Virus record (IMG/VR): IMGVR_UViG_3300035661_002932
Coordinates: 1 to 22,042 of that record
Origin: a virus
DNA length: 22,042 bases
Direction: 5' to 3' (one strand)
The position numbers and the translations under genes are program-made. Each line of letters begins with the position of its first letter. The stretch's first letter is position 1. Shown here piece after piece: positions 6,764 through 21,923 of this stretch. The notes beneath the pieces were generated by a model, which was not told where the DNA came from, did no database searches, and saw only the letters and a program-made list of their open reading frames with translations.

Positions 6764-7206
6764 GATGTTGCTCCTTTGAGAAGGTTAGGTGCATTTGCTT
6801 CGAGCCATGCACGCATGCTCTTGCTAAGCCGAGTTAGTGCTTCAGCAGGTGTGACGAGCTCGTATTGGTCAACTTCGGGGTACTGATAAGTTCCACGGTC
6901 AACCATTGAGGTACACTTTAGCCGGAGCAAGTCCACCGGTTCGGGGTAGTCAAGCAAAAATAGGTGGACATTCTTTTGCTTGCTATAATGTGCGCAGCCT
7001 AGGTCAACTGCGCGGTCCTTATATGCGGTTAGGTCAAGCCCAGTTTCTTCAATCGTCTCACGAACCGCAGCTGAGATATGATCCTCACCTTCTTCAGCAA
7101 TACCTTTGGGAAAGTCCCAATGTTTATTGCCAGTTGAGTGGCAGATCAACCAGCCGGCGGCCGTGTTGATGATAAAGCCGCAGCTTGTCTTTGTTTTATC
7201 AGTCAC
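6760..7206 (-). CDS. Nudix hydrolase
   Basis: A 148-aa protein with a complete Nudix box: G35-x5-E41-x7-R49-E50-x2-E53-E54-x-G56 (GIAEEGEDH then RETIEETG). Nudix enzymes cleave nucleoside diphosphates linked to another group. The preceding HWDFPKG resembles the W-x-x-PKG of Ap4A and (di)phosphoinositol-type Nudix enzymes, so dinucleoside polyphosphates are one candidate substrate. Because the gene overlaps the end of the PARP gene by 8 bases, ADP-ribose or protein-linked ADP-ribose is another candidate. It starts with GTG, supported by GGAG 7 nt upstream. It is translationally coupled on both sides. The substrate assignment is inference; the family assignment is secure. Confidence 0.94.
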   Translation of the reverse strand: MTDKTKTSCGFIINTAAGWLICHSTGNKHWDFPKGIAEEGEDHISAAVRETIEETGLDLTAYKDRAVDLGCAHYSKQKNVHLFLLDYPEPVDLLRLKCTSMVDRGTYQYPEVDQYELVTPAEALTRLSKSMRAWLEANAPNLLKGATS

Positions 7207-8524
7207 CGCTGAACTCCACGAGGGTACGAATGTCTGCTTGGCTGGTACGGTACACGATCATCTCATTGTTCATCACACCAGATTGACCACCGACAGCATA
7301 GCAGCTGTCATAGCCAGCAGGGATATTGCTCAACGGGCGATTTGGTGTATAATAGTTGCCCATTGCAACTTGAGCCAAGAACATAAAGCAGTTGTTGTCA
7401 CGAGCACCGCCATCCCAGTAACCATAAGCGTAGTTGAGGGATTTGGTGGACTGATCAGAGAAGTACAAGCCGTCACCAAACATTCGACCGGTGATTGCAA
7501 TGGAGCCGCCGCTCTTCGGAATGATCAGCTTGTTCTTGAGGATAGACAGCACATTGTGAGTACGAGTGCCGTGCCACAGCTCCCAAACATTGGGCAGCTT
7601 TGCACCATCGTTGTCAAACTCCTGACGCATGGATGGGATATGCACCGTGTAGGCACGTACTGGCTTCAAGCGATGGGAGGTATGCATCGTGTTGCGGCCC
7701 TTTTCATAGAAGGCTACAATACGCTTGAACTCAGCAGAGCTCGGATCAATGACTGACAGCTCAACTTCAAAGACCTTGTCATCAACCTTTTTGCCAGCTG
7801 CCTTAGCTGCGGCTTTCTCAGTGTCCTTGACACGTTGTTCAGCCAAGCTAATCGAAGATTCCAGCTGATCCAACAGCTGAGACTGACGTTGCAGTGCTGC
7901 GTCATTGGAGATGAATGTACGATGCCAGCCACGATGTCCAACTTTTTGTGGCACGAGCATCAGGTAGTCATTCAGCTTGCTCTTGAAGTCCGACGTGTCA
8001 AAGGCTTGCTTCTGCACCGGTTCAACGAAACCCTTGAGCAGAGCACGAGCCTGGTCAATGTTGCCTTGCGTAATGATGCCGATGGGAGTGGTGACCAGGC
8101 CAGTGGTTAGGTCAATGTCCAGCTGCCCGCCTGAAGCAACGTGCAGCTCATGGCGGTTTGCTTCAGCAAGACGATGCACAAGCTTCTCCAGTACGGTGTC
8201 ACCTTTAGCAATGTCACGAACTGCAGTAGCCTTGACATTTTGCACCTTGGCAGAAGGACCAGACGGGCCGGTGGGGACAGCAACAACTTCAATCTCGCGG
8301 TACTCACCTTCAGCACGGCCAGGCTTAGTCTTTTCGCGAATTTTGGAGTCGAGCTTGGAGCGGGTGATTGCTTTTCGAGGTTCGGTGGTGCAGGTAGCAC
8401 CAATACGACCGTACTTGATAACGACAGTCATATCCTCGTAAAGGGCATACTCCCAAAACTTATTGTTGTTATTGTCTGCATTGGCACAGACAAACTTGCG
8501 ATGCTCAATTACCTTATCAGACAT
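7199..8524 (-). CDS. PARP-like ADP-ribosyltransferase with WGR and helical domains
   Basis: A 441-aa protein with the domain order of the catalytic half of eukaryotic PARP1. Residues 1-80 are a WGR domain (NKFWEYALYEDM, then KYGRIGATC; the canonical WGR triplet reads YGR here). Residues about 110-300 resemble the PARP helical domain: TPIGIITQGNIDQARALL, LMLVPQKVG and LLDQLESSISL. Residues 300-441 are the catalytic ART fold with the full H-Y-E triad: His318 in LWHGTR, Tyr354 in FGDGLYFSD and Glu421 in NNEMIVY. The Glu is the residue needed for poly-ADP-ribose chains in PARP1. It would use NAD+ to modify proteins or nucleic acids; WGR domains usually sense DNA breaks. It is unlike the T4 Alt/ModA/ModB transferases. 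A T4-late-like promoter lies 59 nt upstream, and a Nudix gene overlaps its end. Confidence 0.95.
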   Translation of the reverse strand: MSDKVIEHRKFVCANADNNNNKFWEYALYEDMTVVIKYGRIGATCTTEPRKAITRSKLDSKIREKTKPGRAEGEYREIEVVAVPTGPSGPSAKVQNVKATAVRDIAKGDTVLEKLVHRLAEANRHELHVASGGQLDIDLTTGLVTTPIGIITQGNIDQARALLKGFVEPVQKQAFDTSDFKSKLNDYLMLVPQKVGHRGWHRTFISNDAALQRQSQLLDQLESSISLAEQRVKDTEKAAAKAAGKKVDDKVFEVELSVIDPSSAEFKRIVAFYEKGRNTMHTSHRLKPVRAYTVHIPSMRQEFDNDGAKLPNVWELWHGTRTHNVLSILKNKLIIPKSGGSIAITGRMFGDGLYFSDQSTKSLNYAYGYWDGGARDNNCFMFLAQVAMGNYYTPNRPLSNIPAGYDSCYAVGGQSGVMNNEMIVYRTSQADIRTLVEFSGD

Positions 8525-18190: not shown

Positions 18191-18936
18191 GTAAAGCCCT
18201 CAGGATTAAACAACAGCTTCGTTTGACCCATGCTAAAACGATCAAGCTGAAGCTGCATTCGCTCGAGTCGTCCGATGTAGATCGGTAGCATGGTCTCGAT
18301 GTCAAAGAAGATATAGCGCTTGGTTCCTACCTTGCCATTGAACAGCCGATTGAAGTAATCCTCTTCAGCCGTCTTCATAGCTTTAGCGCTCAAGCTCCTT
18401 AGCTTATCAAGAGTGCTTTTCGGGATGTTCCCAAAATGCTCCGGAACGGTAATGCTACCCTTCCGCTCATGCTTTAGCAAAAGCTGAACTACACGGTATA
18501 ACAGGTGGTGTGAAGCCATGAACTCATCAGTACCTAAGCGTAAGTCAACCCAATTTTGCCCGGATCGATTTACTGCTTTGACCTCCAAGTACGGGATACC
18601 CGTTACATGAATGTCGATGCTGCTTGTAGTACCGCCTAAGGTCACATCATCAAAGATGAAGTAGATAAGTACCTCACCTCGACCGATCCCGCTACCAAGG
18701 TCATCAATAGTCCCATGCATTGTGAACAGTTTCCGCGAAAAAGCGGGAAACGCTGCAATGAAGTTCATAAGCACCGGAATCAGATCATCATCCGTTAGCA
18801 CGGGAGTGATATGCTTCAGCGGTTCAGGGTTACCTTCATTCAGCTCTGCTATCCATCGTTGCCTAAGACGATTTTTAACCTCTAGAGTGATAGCTGCATC
18901 TCCATCTGTTTCCTGGGTTGATTGTACCACATTCAA
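18073..18936 (-). CDS. Possible PD-(D/E)XK nuclease-like protein with disturbed ends
   Basis: The open frame has 287 codons. Its core is GIGRGEVLIYFIFDD (with Gly87-Glu88), then SSIDIHVTGIPYLEVKAV, where Asp108 and Glu118-x-Lys120 fit a PD-(D/E)XK nuclease site with the upstream GxGE often seen in such enzymes. Both ends are suspicious. The only start in this frame is a TTG at 18936 that lies inside the promoter spacer, whereas AGGAAACAG-ATG at 18905 opens a frame MEMQLSL that stops at once but is one missing base away from EVKNRLRQRW. At the other end, residues after TKLLF are Pro/Thr-rich and antagonise the next gene; one extra T near 18208 would give TTTTAA, a stop just before that gene's Shine-Dalgarno. 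The expected product is about 233 aa. Confidence 0.72.
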   Translation of the reverse strand: MNVVQSTQETDGDAAITLEVKNRLRQRWIAELNEGNPEPLKHITPVLTDDDLIPVLMNFIAAFPAFSRKLFTMHGTIDDLGSGIGRGEVLIYFIFDDVTLGGTTSSIDIHVTGIPYLEVKAVNRSGQNWVDLRLGTDEFMASHHLLYRVVQLLLKHERKGSITVPEHFGNIPKSTLDKLRSLSAKAMKTAEEDYFNRLFNGKVGTKRYIFFDIETMLPIYIGRLERMQLQLDRFSMGQTKLLFNPEGFTCQPSAPPNIETPEPDPCGCTPLSTFTTPPSNKESSLLT

Positions 18937-18949
18937 ACAATGTTGTAAA
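18921..18949 (-). promoter_or_regulatory. Early sigma70-like promoter for the nuclease-like gene
   Basis: TTTACA (18949-18944), a 17-bp spacer and TACAAT (18926-18921). A transcript from about 18914 would carry AGGA just before the ATG at 18905 and would exclude the TTG at 18936. Confidence 0.7.
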
Positions 18950-18962
18950 TCTTTGAGAGGTA

Positions 18963-18997
18963 TAAAGAAAAAGCCACCTCTAGTTAAAGAGGCGGCT
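18963..18997 (-). terminator. Rho-independent terminator after the endolysin
   Basis: A 10-bp stem (18972-18981 with 18988-18997, one G:T pair) with a 6-nt loop is followed on the minus strand by TTTTTCTTT. It lies 12 bases after the endolysin stop and just before the next promoter. Confidence 0.9.
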
Positions 18998-19009
18998 CTT
19001 AATCAAAAG

Positions 19010-19501
19010 TTAAGCCGAAGGCTGTTGGTCGCTGTCGGTTACCTGGGTGTCTTCGTATTCAACCTCAATGACATCATCGAGAGTTTTACCGGCATTAAAG
19101 TCGGCTAGTGTCAACCCGCCAGTGAATTGGAAGTGCGGGAACTCTTTGAAAGTCTTCCAATTACCGCCCCATTCAAGGCCTAGGTCTGTGCCTAGCTTAC
19201 CGATGGTTTGCCACAATTGGCCATCAGCTCCACCAGTATTCCAGACTGGCTTACCTGCACGAAGCGGGACAACGTCAAACGCTACATGCCAATTGTGGAA
19301 GCTTTGACCAGCTTTTGCATTTGTAACCTTCACACCTGGCTTTGTACGACCTTGTGCATACAAGGCATCTTGACTTTCAAAGTCACGGTAGGTGGAGGTG
19401 ATGAGCAGGTCAATGCCGTGCTCTTTTGATGCTTCAATCAGCTCTTCAGCCAAGTACTTAACGTATGGGTGAAGGTCATCGAGGCTGCGTGAATTGATCA
19501 T
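19010..19501 (-). CDS. M15-family peptidoglycan peptidase (endolysin)
   Basis: A 163-aa zinc peptidase of the VanY/L-Ala-D-Glu endopeptidase type that cuts the peptide part of peptidoglycan for host lysis. Zinc ligands are readable as His69 and Asp76 in SFHNWHVAFD and His123 in FPHFQ; TSTYRDFESQDALYAQGR and LGLEWGGNWKTF are the usual flanking elements. No signal peptide is present, so a holin would be needed. About 30 C-terminal residues (TLDDVIEVEYEDTQV onwards) form an acidic extension beyond the usual domain. The Shine-Dalgarno AAAGGAG, 8 nt before the ATG, is one arm of a 10-bp inverted repeat, described separately. Confidence 0.95.
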   Translation of the reverse strand: MINSRSLDDLHPYVKYLAEELIEASKEHGIDLLITSTYRDFESQDALYAQGRTKPGVKVTNAKAGQSFHNWHVAFDVVPLRAGKPVWNTGGADGQLWQTIGKLGTDLGLEWGGNWKTFKEFPHFQFTGGLTLADFNAGKTLDDVIEVEYEDTQVTDSDQQPSA

Positions 19502-19505
19502 GATG

Positions 19506-19546
19506 TAGCTCCTTTGTTATTGATGTCTTATTTAATAAAGGAGCTA
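19506..19546 (-). promoter_or_regulatory. Shine-Dalgarno-sequestering hairpin with late-promoter box in its loop
   Basis: On the minus strand TAGCTCCTTT (19546-19537) pairs perfectly with AAAGGAGCTA (19515-19506); the second arm contains the endolysin Shine-Dalgarno. The 21-nt loop carries ATTAAATA (19536-19529), six of eight to the T4 late consensus and complete in its TAAATA part. A late transcript starting near 19523 would lack the first arm and so have a free ribosome binding site, while read-through mRNA from the kinase gene would be blocked. T4 lysozyme gene e is known to be controlled in this way. Confidence 0.72.
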
Positions 19547-19558
19547 TAACTTGCTGCT

Positions 19559-20101
19559 TTATTGCTGCAGCTGCCAGATATGAGCAAAGCCTTCAGCCTT
19601 GCTCGGAGCCTCATAGCTGCTAAGCATGTTGGTGATCACATGTGCCGGGATGTGCTTACCGGTAGCCGCTTCACGTTCAGCCAACCGACGCTTGATCTCG
19701 GCTTCAGGCACATCAAAGCCGATAGCAATGATCATGTGGTTGGGCATCAAGGTGATCTTCTCACTACGAGCTTTCTTGCCCATGTTGGTTTGATCATTGA
19801 TGATATTGATACCCGCTACAGCATTTTCAGCGATACCTGCCAACATTTGTTTCTTCAGCTGTTTCATGTTGACATGCTTATTGAATGCTTCGGTGTAAGT
19901 AATACCCTTGGCAGCTGCGATCTTGTCAATCATGGCATCGGTGCTGGCAATGTAGGTGTTCGGCAGCTCAGCCAATACCTTTTGTACGAAGGTGGACTTA
20001 CCTGAAGCAGGACATCCGATGAGGATCAAACCCCACGGCCGATTATCATTGTTGATGCGCTTCAGCTCGGCAATGATTTGCCCTGCGGTCATTTGCTTCA
20101 T
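19559..20101 (-). CDS. Polynucleotide kinase-like P-loop kinase, kinase domain only
   Basis: A 180-aa P-loop protein resembling the 5'-kinase domain of T4 Pnkp. Walker A is GCPASGKST (residues 29-37). The following STDAMIDKIAAAKGITY corresponds to the strand-helix holding the T4 kinase active-site Asp; DQTNMGKKARSEKI matches the T4 DTNLNPERR region; and RRLAEREAATGKHIPAHVI is the arginine-rich lid. The Pnkp 3'-phosphatase domain (DxDGT) is missing. It likely phosphorylates 5'-OH ends of RNA or DNA, feeding the RNA ligase at 9286-10479, though a nucleotide or other small-molecule kinase is possible. AAGGA lies 6 nt before the ATG, with an early promoter upstream. Confidence 0.9.
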   Translation of the reverse strand: MKQMTAGQIIAELKRINNDNRPWGLILIGCPASGKSTFVQKVLAELPNTYIASTDAMIDKIAAAKGITYTEAFNKHVNMKQLKKQMLAGIAENAVAGINIINDQTNMGKKARSEKITLMPNHMIIAIGFDVPEAEIKRRLAEREAATGKHIPAHVITNMLSSYEAPSKAEGFAHIWQLQQ

Positions 20102-20131
20102 GTGTTATCCTTCCAGCTATTAGATAGAAGG

Positions 20132-20160
20132 ATTGTATCATGAACTTAGGTACCTGTAAA
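20132..20160 (-). promoter_or_regulatory. Early sigma70-like promoter for the PNK-like kinase
   Basis: TTTACA (20160-20155), a 17-bp spacer and TACAAT (20137-20132), about 30 bases before the ATG at 20101. It starts only 6 bases after the preceding gene ends. Confidence 0.75.
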
Positions 20161-20165
20161 CAGGC

Positions 20166-20714
20166 TTATTGCACAGGTATTGCTTTAAGCAAGGTGCTTA
20201 AGTCATCAATCGAAAGCCGTGTAGGGACTCGACGTGTTGGGATGCCACGAAATACTAGTGCAAGGTACGTTGTTTGCTGTTCAGTGACCTCATCTTGGAA
20301 CGGAGTCTCTTCAGCATACAATAAGTAGTTAGGATTACACATATACGGCACAACATCGGCCTTAACATTGTTCTTGATTCGATTTAGCCGTAGAGCAGGT
20401 AAGCTACCTTCAAGGTTGACAATGTCAAGCATACCTGGTGTACCGTCGCACGATGACACACCTGTTTGAATACCCTGTGTGACATCAACGGCATCAAGTA
20501 TGGATTCGATACTTTCCATTGATGCAAGCGTATAGAACGTATACTCAGGATAACCGATAATATGCACCCGAGACGCAGTAAATGTGGTGCGATAAAGCTT
20601 ATCTTCAAGCACTTCCTTTTCAACAAGGAGGATTGAGCTCTTGTTGACGATGATAGGTTGCTTGTTTGTAAAGGAGCTGGTTGTCAGCTTGTCGAATCGT
20701 AGGAATTGTGTCAT
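20166..20714 (-). CDS. Hypothetical protein, 182 aa
   Basis: No family is recognised. The protein begins MTQFLRFDKLTTSSFT and reads as a soluble, beta-rich domain (PIIVNKSSILLVEKEV, then RVHIIGYPEYTFYTL), with a C-terminal helix SIDDLSTLLKAI. There is no Shine-Dalgarno before the ATG at 20714; a late-like box GATAAATA ends 6 nt upstream, which would give an almost leaderless mRNA. The next early promoter begins directly after its stop. Confidence 0.8.
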   Translation of the reverse strand: MTQFLRFDKLTTSSFTNKQPIIVNKSSILLVEKEVLEDKLYRTTFTASRVHIIGYPEYTFYTLASMESIESILDAVDVTQGIQTGVSSCDGTPGMLDIVNLEGSLPALRLNRIKNNVKADVVPYMCNPNYLLYAEETPFQDEVTEQQTTYLALVFRGIPTRRVPTRLSIDDLSTLLKAIPVQ

Positions 20715-20720
20715 GGAAGC

Positions 20721-20728
20721 TATTTATC
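20721..20728 (-). promoter_or_regulatory. T4-late-like box GATAAATA next to an ATG
   Basis: Seven of eight bases match TATAAATA. It lies 6 nt before the ATG at 20714, closer than a normal leader would allow, so it is either a leaderless late promoter or chance. Confidence 0.35.
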
Positions 20729-20734
20729 TCATAA

Positions 20735-20916
20735 ATGAGCTTTATGAAACTACATGATCTCTTTGAGAGGACCTATCACTTCAGACAGGCGCTGATGTAA
20801 AGCGGCTTTGGCACGAGATCAATCATACTTGCTTTAATGATGAGCTTACTGAACCGCCGATTTACATCGAAGCACTTGACAAGATGAATCATCATAAGTG
20901 GAAAGCTGAAGGCTAA
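20735..20916 (+). pseudogene. Broken SprT-like small gene on the plus strand
   Basis: From the ATG at 20735 the frame reads MSFMKLHDLFERTYHFRQALM and stops at 20800. Stepping back one base at 20791, where GCGCT may once have been GCGGCT, the reading continues as ADVKRLWHEINHTCFNDELTE and PPIYIEALDKMNHHKW to the stop at 20914-20916. The joined product, about 60 aa, resembles the start of phage SprT-like proteins, in which a helix with W..IN..CF..L precedes P-x-I; HEINH also happens to fit HExxH. The rest of an SprT domain is absent. It is one of only two plus-strand items here and converges on the HNH gene, sharing stop-codon bases with it. Confidence 0.5.
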
Positions 20917-20931
20917 CGTTTGCGGTTAGCC
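20911..20931. terminator. Possible bidirectional hairpin between convergent genes
   Basis: A 7-bp stem GGCTAAC/GTTAGCC (20911-20917 with 20925-20931) with a 7-nt loop lies over the two overlapping stop codons. No good T run follows on either strand, so termination is uncertain. Confidence 0.4.
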
Positions 20932-21242
20932 GTGATGGTGTTATCATAATAGTCCGATGGTTTCTTCTGGACCCAATTGATGAACTTTGCAATGTCTGGG
21001 TGTGCCTTTATCACTTCCCAGGTATTGTATACTTTCTCAAGCTCACGCTCTGTGAAAGTTGCGTGAATCTTACGATGACAAATGCGATGGATAAAGTACT
21101 GATCCTTGCCACCGAATGTCTTAGGCACCAGATGATGCCGATCAACATTCACTAGGCCAAGCGGCCGTCCACAGACAGCACAAGGCTGATTCTGATTTAC
21201 AAAGAGCTCAGCCTTTGATGCAGGTGCTTCAACTTTCATCAT
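20913..21242 (-). CDS. HNH endonuclease domain protein
   Basis: A 109-aa protein from the ATG at 21242. The HNH motif is complete: CAVCG (Cys21, Cys24), VDRHHLVPKTFGG (His36, His37) and ICHRKIH (Cys55, His60), giving a zinc-stabilised beta-beta-alpha metal nuclease site. A helical C-terminus ends with KKPSDYYDN. It could be a free-standing homing nuclease or a DNA-processing nuclease; small HNH genes are common mobile parts of phage genomes. Starts at 21293 (GTG) and 21251 (ATG) are possible, but residues before 21242 overlap protein-like sequence in another frame belonging to the upstream broken gene. Confidence 0.88.
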   Translation of the reverse strand: MMKVEAPASKAELFVNQNQPCAVCGRPLGLVNVDRHHLVPKTFGGKDQYFIHRICHRKIHATFTERELEKVYNTWEVIKAHPDIAKFINWVQKKPSDYYDNTITANRKR

Positions 21243-21476: not shown

Positions 21477-21923
21477 TCAGTCTCCTGCAAATAAGCGTTC
21501 GATCTCTCGTGCAACATCACGCTCTTTGATGGTGTTACGCTTATCATGCAACTTCTTACCTTTGGCAAGGCCGATCTCAATTTTGACACGTCCTTTGCTA
21601 AAGTGTGCATTCAGCGGCACAATGGTAAAGCCACGTTCAGCAACCTTGCCTATTAGCTTTTGAATCTGTTGCTTATGGAGCAACAGCTTACGCGTGCGTG
21701 TTGTATCGGCATGCACGTGTGATGAGGCTTGCACCAGCGGGGTAATATGTGAGCCGATCATTACAACCTCCTCACCTTTGATTATCACGTGTGCTTCTGC
21801 AATTTGAATGCCCTTAGCACGGATAGCCTTAACCTCCCAACCTTCAAGAACAATGCCGGCTTCAATCCGATCTTCGATGAAGTAATCAAAGCAAGCCTTG
21901 CGATTTGTTGTAATATTGCTCAT
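21477..21923 (-). CDS. smpB: SmpB, tmRNA-binding protein
   Basis: A 148-aa full-length SmpB. It has the family landmarks in order: [71 protein letters not shown] and the C-terminal [13 protein letters not shown]. SmpB binds the tRNA-like part of tmRNA and places it in stalled ribosomes for trans-translation. The RNA-binding strands and the GKKxHDKR element are intact, so binding to host tmRNA is plausible. The C-terminal tail, which enters the mRNA channel, is present but short and ends acidic (FAGD). It overlaps the upstream gene by four bases (ATGA). I see no tmRNA in the window. Sequence style looks proteobacterial. Confidence 0.97.

Follow-up and report, generated by a model that had tools for sequence, protein, structure and literature searches.

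The gene for an M15-type endolysin in the DNA analysed here (the window, a complete virus record of 22,042 bases) is probably controlled by a stage-specific translational lock of the type known from gene e of bacteriophage T4, a reading to which we assign a probability of about 0.75. Taking into account the layout of promoter and terminator, early transcripts from a host-type promoter (20160-20132) would run through a kinase gene into the endolysin gene. In these long messages a 5' arm pairs, in computed folds, with the Shine-Dalgarno (SD) sequence, which would keep ribosomes from starting and prevent the premature appearance of the lysis enzyme. Later, a gp55-type RNA polymerase would start about 6 nt downstream of a ATTAAATA box, within the hairpin loop, and the late message, beginning in the loop and lacking the 5' arm, would be freely translated.

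The endolysin and its genomic context

The window is a fragment of a T4-like phage, and its minus strand carries nearly all of its genes. Its T4-like genes include those for both topoisomerase subunits, a T4-type RNA ligase, a dNMP kinase, a thymidylate synthase, and PARP-like and tail-fibre-like proteins. Upstream of the PARP-type ADP-ribosyltransferase (7199-8524, minus strand), which has WGR and PARP regulatory domains, a late-type box TATAAATA is found at 8590-8583. SmpB, the partner of tmRNA in trans-translation, is phage-encoded (21477-21923, minus strand; Pfam E 1e-54), and no tmRNA was found within the window.

The endolysin protein matches Pfam Peptidase_M15_4 and VanY above the cut-off, falls in the PHROG class endolysins, and has as its closest solved structure 2vo9, an L-alanyl-D-glutamate peptidase. 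The H, D and H of the M15 metal site are present, the S-H-A-D and PH columns being conserved in an alignment with RB49-type enzymes, and the start codon is consistent with the relatives, whose alignment begins at residue 1. The enzyme does not belong to the T4 gene e family (lysozyme, a glycoside hydrolase), and the statement of the first-pass annotation that the lysis enzyme here is an unrelated M15 peptidase agrees with Pfam, PHROG and 2vo9.

A hairpin over the ribosome-binding site

In the orientation of the gene, the start region reads TAGCTCCTTT ATTAAATAAGACATCAATAAC AAAGGAGCTA CATC ATG, and comprises the following elements:

19546-19537, minus strand: 5' arm TAGCTCCTTT (anti-SD), pairing with the 3' arm
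19536-19516, minus strand: 21-nt loop, from the sequence and the minus-strand RNA fold
19536-19529, minus strand: late-promoter-like box ATTAAATA, with its TAAATA core at 19534-19529, 27 nt before the start codon
19521..19524, minus strand: predicted late transcription start, from T4 spacing (PMC1524935) with the box at -13 to -6
19515-19506, minus strand: 3' arm AAAGGAGCTA with the SD AAAGGAG, 7 nt before the ATG
19010..19501, minus strand: gene of the M15-type endolysin (L-alanyl-D-glutamate peptidase / VanY-like), 163 aa, ATG at 19501-19499

The two arms form a perfect Watson-Crick helix of 10 bp, with the ATG falling outside the stem. Thus, the 10-bp perfect inverted repeat over AAAGGAG with ATTAAATA in a 21-nt loop, originally noticed by reading the letters, is borne out by both the sequence and the RNA fold. 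The minus-strand RNA of the hairpin (68 nt) folds at -12.4 kcal/mol with a z of -3.26, equalled in 2 of 200 shuffles, and no known RNA family in Rfam matches it. The window contains six perfect inverted repeats of at least 10 bp with loops of 3-40 nt, against 0.72 per shuffle, and the endolysin hairpin is the only one of them sitting on a ribosome-binding site. Its helix over the SD is the top one among the scored genes of the window and ranks second among 360 gene starts from six genomes (the window phage and five related records). The stronger start is that of a 50-aa ORF of pf16 (position 120667, minus strand, in L054), which has a 15-bp perfect helix.

It might be argued that a purine-rich ribosome-binding site has met a pyrimidine-rich complement by chance, with no regulation involved. 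Such repeats can arise trivially, as in L021, where AAAGGAGCTA is present at each of two divergent genes and so creates the repeat, and the hairpin is a single finding picked among many. However, dinucleotide shuffling of the endolysin upstream sequence gave an SD helix this strong in 6 of 20,000 trials, and the hairpin is accompanied by a late-type box and lies in an early-type operon. Moreover, gene 6763 of the window has a near-identical ribosome-binding site (CAAAGGAGCAACATCATGATCAA vs CAAAGGAGCTACATCATGATCAA) with no complementary arm, and therefore the endolysin arm is an added element and not a by-product. Chance is thus the least probable of the explanations considered here.

A reading of the repeat as two facing ribosome-binding sites of divergent genes, as in L021, was rejected because the upstream gene lies on the same strand as the endolysin. 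The hairpin was also rejected as a terminator, since neither strand has a T-run after the stem.

It has also to be considered that the inverted repeat may act as DNA or on the plus strand, as the operator of a regulator or as a structure in an antisense transcript. The plus-strand RNA folds more stably, two G.U pairs lengthening its helix to 16 bp (z -4.55), and L020, an unrelated contig, has identical 14-nt arms, with its ribosome-binding site located further downstream. Against this, every convincing gene at the locus is on the minus strand, with none on the plus strand at the hairpin, and no plus-strand promoter-like site lies near it, the only one listed in 18800-21000 being at 20295-20322. 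The arm, furthermore, covers the ribosome-binding site exactly, and we regard a DNA or plus-strand element as very improbable. The L020 arms (TAGCTCCTTTGTTA / TAATAAAGGAGCTA, L020:8916-8951), equal to those of the window plus strand, are found between two genes which, judged by eye, resemble T4-like structural genes.

Computed opening of the Shine-Dalgarno sequence

In a modelled early mRNA of 684 nt, which begins near 20125 and includes the first 60 nt of the endolysin gene, the SD pairs with the 5' arm with a mean probability of 0.96, and its opening costs 10.3 kcal/mol. When 60-200 nt of upstream sequence are included, opening requires 8.0-11.7 kcal/mol, and in a transcript starting in the loop it falls to 3.8-3.9 kcal/mol. 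The same method gives about 15 vs 4.6 kcal/mol for T4 e. By computed folding, the SD is thus sequestered by the helix in transcripts initiated upstream, which would be repressed in translation, whereas a late transcript started at 19521-19524 would have a leader of about 22 nt devoid of the 5' arm.

The late-promoter-like box

The box ATTAAATA has two mismatches, at -13/-12, with respect to T4 TATAAATA, and near-matches to it are no commoner than chance within the window. Both points fit a different reading, in which the hairpin represses translation, the box lacks promoter function, and the lock is either constitutive or opened by temperature, by a protein, or by the traffic of ribosomes on the kinase gene. 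The two mismatches alone would indeed make the promoter claim weak, but the statistics of TAAATA in the relatives alter the picture.

In the window, seven of nine TAAATA sites are on the coding strand, six of these seven being intergenic, and most other window boxes have the form ATAAATA, from which the endolysin box differs at -12. In X1, pf16 and G001 (a 103-kb contig), sense-strand TAAATA sites ahead of genes exceed expectation 7- to 8-fold (28 vs 3.9, 30 vs 4.3 and 22 vs 2.6 expected, respectively, with 6, 5 and 5 on the antisense strand), and most sites are located 15-45 nt ahead of a gene start. The strict T4 TATAAATA is hardly enriched over the whole records of these three, and ATTAAATA itself appears four times upstream of X1 genes against 0.31 expected. 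The genes marked by TAAATA in X1 and G001 encode portal, tail sheath, terminase, baseplate and tail-fibre proteins, together with one ribonucleotide reductase. Homologues of the gp55-like sigma factor are encoded by X1, pf16 and G001; none was found on the 22-kb window fragment. T4-like phages vary in their late box at the positions where the endolysin box deviates (PMC1524935, PMC2984593), examples being CTAAATA in Aeh1 (PMC1524935) and NATAAATA in cyanophages (PMC2984593). These motif statistics suggest that TAAATA is the late-type core of this phage group, and that the endolysin box, which lies at the matching distance, is a putative late promoter.

The strong, strand- and position-specific enrichment of TAAATA in the relatives argues against a box without promoter function, as does the location of ATTAAATA at the very point from which initiation would leave the 5' arm out of the transcript. 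Regarding ribosome traffic, a gap of 57 nt separates the kinase stop codon from the start of the endolysin gene, which makes coupled translation less than obvious. Repression by a hairpin whose box is not a promoter is thus unlikely, and a late promoter inside a stage-specific lock is preferred.

The predicted early operon and a second hairpin

Upstream and downstream of the hairpin, the following features were identified:

20160-20132, minus strand: early-type promoter TTTACA-17-TACAAT, exact, ahead of the kinase gene (consensus scan)
20133-20127 / 20113-20107, minus strand: second, smaller SD hairpin, at the kinase gene, ATCCTTC / GAAGGAT, 7 bp
19559..20101, minus strand: AAA_33 / polynucleotide-kinase-like gene (Pfam, PHROG), putative first gene of a two-gene early operon
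18969..19000, minus strand: intrinsic terminator directly after the endolysin stop, 13 pairs and a T-rich tail
14041-14013 and 18949-18921 (exact) and 16017-15989 (one mismatch), minus strand: further copies of the early-type promoter

Copies of the early-type motif stand ahead of both topoisomerase genes, one of these copies having a single mismatch, and the host-type form of these promoters, together with the genes that they precede, points to early action. The terminator at 18969-19000 is the sole terminator-like site found in 18800-21000. Consensus scans thus place the endolysin downstream of an early-type promoter with no terminator found between it and the kinase gene and with one after it, so early read-through would be expected. 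This layout would make the endolysin the second and last member of an early operon that begins with the kinase gene. Early-type promoter, upstream gene, anti-SD arm, late-type box, ribosome-binding site, endolysin and terminator follow one another in the right order, an arrangement that supports the T4-e-like mechanism put forward in the first-pass annotation.

The kinase gene has a comparable arrangement, in which the 5' arm of its hairpin overlaps the -10 end of the promoter and lies upstream of the expected early start. Opening of the kinase SD costs 0.8-1.3 kcal/mol in transcripts from its own promoter vs 9-16 kcal/mol with longer leaders. In the unrelated contig L022 (3742-3786), the -10 box of a sigma-70-type promoter, TTGACC-17-TATAAT, falls within an SD hairpin loop. 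A sigma-70 promoter of this kind in the endolysin loop was rejected, as no matching hexamer pair is present there. The kinase hairpin and L022, though single cases, suggest a general insulator. Anti-SD arms placed just 5' of a gene's own transcription start might insulate against read-through in these phages generally, with late (endolysin) and early (kinase) promoters alike, and T4-like phages might have acquired them separately at endolysin genes unrelated to one another, a generalisation that we advance tentatively and consider rather doubtful.

Distribution among relatives and other M15 endolysins

The nearest M15 proteins are at most 68% identical to the window endolysin and belong to other phages, mostly small. 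At all 11 folded gene starts of the closest M15 relatives from viral contigs, the hairpin is absent. The six nearest T4-like records contain no match to the M15 protein, and no close relatives carrying the endolysin locus were found in which covariation of the stem could be followed.

At more distant M15 endolysin genes (RB49/KMB43, phiKp20/PTP25 and UPEC03/L182/L183), an anti-SD arm, a TAAATA and the SD follow one another much as in the window. The RB49 enzyme is 29% identical to that of the window; RB49 and KMB43 have TCTAAATA at the foot of a stem covering SD and AUG, and in phiKp20, PTP25, UPEC03, L182 and L183 CCTCTT is followed by TAAATA inside the structure and then by the SD in the 3' arm. 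In the RB49, Slopekvirus and Pseudotevenvirus M15 genes, the SD opens more readily in the transcript predicted for the late promoter. Among these genes, late boxes within structures over the ribosome-binding site were seen at L175:5080-5190 (the RB49 endolysin), L177 and L178:500-603. The endolysin genes of ENT3 and L185, and the lysozyme gene of contig L016, have a late box without a clear lock, which tells against the proposed device.

According to a 2010 review, gene e is not apparent in RB49, RB43 and RB16, and its figure on that gene accordingly leaves these M15 genes out (PMC3014915). A literature search of open papers yielded no description of the RB49, Slopekvirus or Pseudotevenvirus M15 hairpin devices.

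In a scan of IMG/VR for CTCCTTT..TAAATA..AAAGGAG, the matches listed include baseplate, sheath and homing endonuclease genes. Among the matches listed, after removal of near-duplicates, 19 genes were in the sense of the box vs 14 antisense, a difference which is not significant; also among the matches listed, stems were longer in the sense orientation (p 0.005).

Thus, the repeat itself is not shared by the 11 folded M15 relatives from viral contigs, and comparable but different stems are found in RB49, Slopekvirus and Pseudotevenvirus. The control device had initially been described as either conserved by position or convergent. Taking into account that the stems differ between the window, T4, RB49 and Slopekvirus/Pseudotevenvirus, that the nearest T4-like records have no M15 match, and that the closest M15 relatives have no hairpin, convergence or repeated gain of the lock is favoured. 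If the lock is real, lysis enzymes of two unrelated types are kept silent during early read-through in T4-like phages by one common solution, reached with several different stems, which would suggest that selection favours the timing and not a particular enzyme or sequence.

Comparison with known systems

The gene e device of T4 is already known, and the M15 endolysin would be a new example of it. In T4, experiments have established that a hairpin hides the SD in long early transcripts and that late mRNAs lack the 5' arm (PMC3014915); the window lock is predicted from sequence and computed folding. In both phages the gene for the lysis enzyme lies downstream of another gene on the same strand (nudE in T4), and has an SD hairpin and a late promoter, putative in the window, in the hairpin region. 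The arrangement had been called exactly that of T4 e, and it is the logic that holds, not the details: the window has one box, in the loop, and its AUG outside the stem, whereas T4 has one late box in the 5' arm, another in the loop, and its AUG in the stem (PMC3014915). The box (ATTAAATA vs TATAAATA), the stem sequences and the enzyme, an M15 peptidase and not a lysozyme, also differ.

Other late genes of the T4 family whose SD is sequestered are soc, 49, 25, 26, I-TevI, segB and Aeh1 mobE (PMC2988022, PMC3014915). They share with the window endolysin the location of a late gene inside early or middle transcripts, with the SD locked by RNA structure, but they are not lysis genes, and several are homing endonucleases, for which transcripts from a late promoter are free of the 5' arm (PMC2988022, PMC3014915).

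RB49 (Krischvirus), Slopekvirus and Pseudotevenvirus resemble the window in having a related M15 enzyme with an upstream TAAATA box and anti-SD arm, although the enzymes are only distantly related and the stems differ. Protection from read-through of the IS10 type follows the same inside-out logic, in which only transcripts from the gene's own promoter lack the anti-SD arm; IS10, however, concerns a transposase gene with a host promoter and involves no phage timing.
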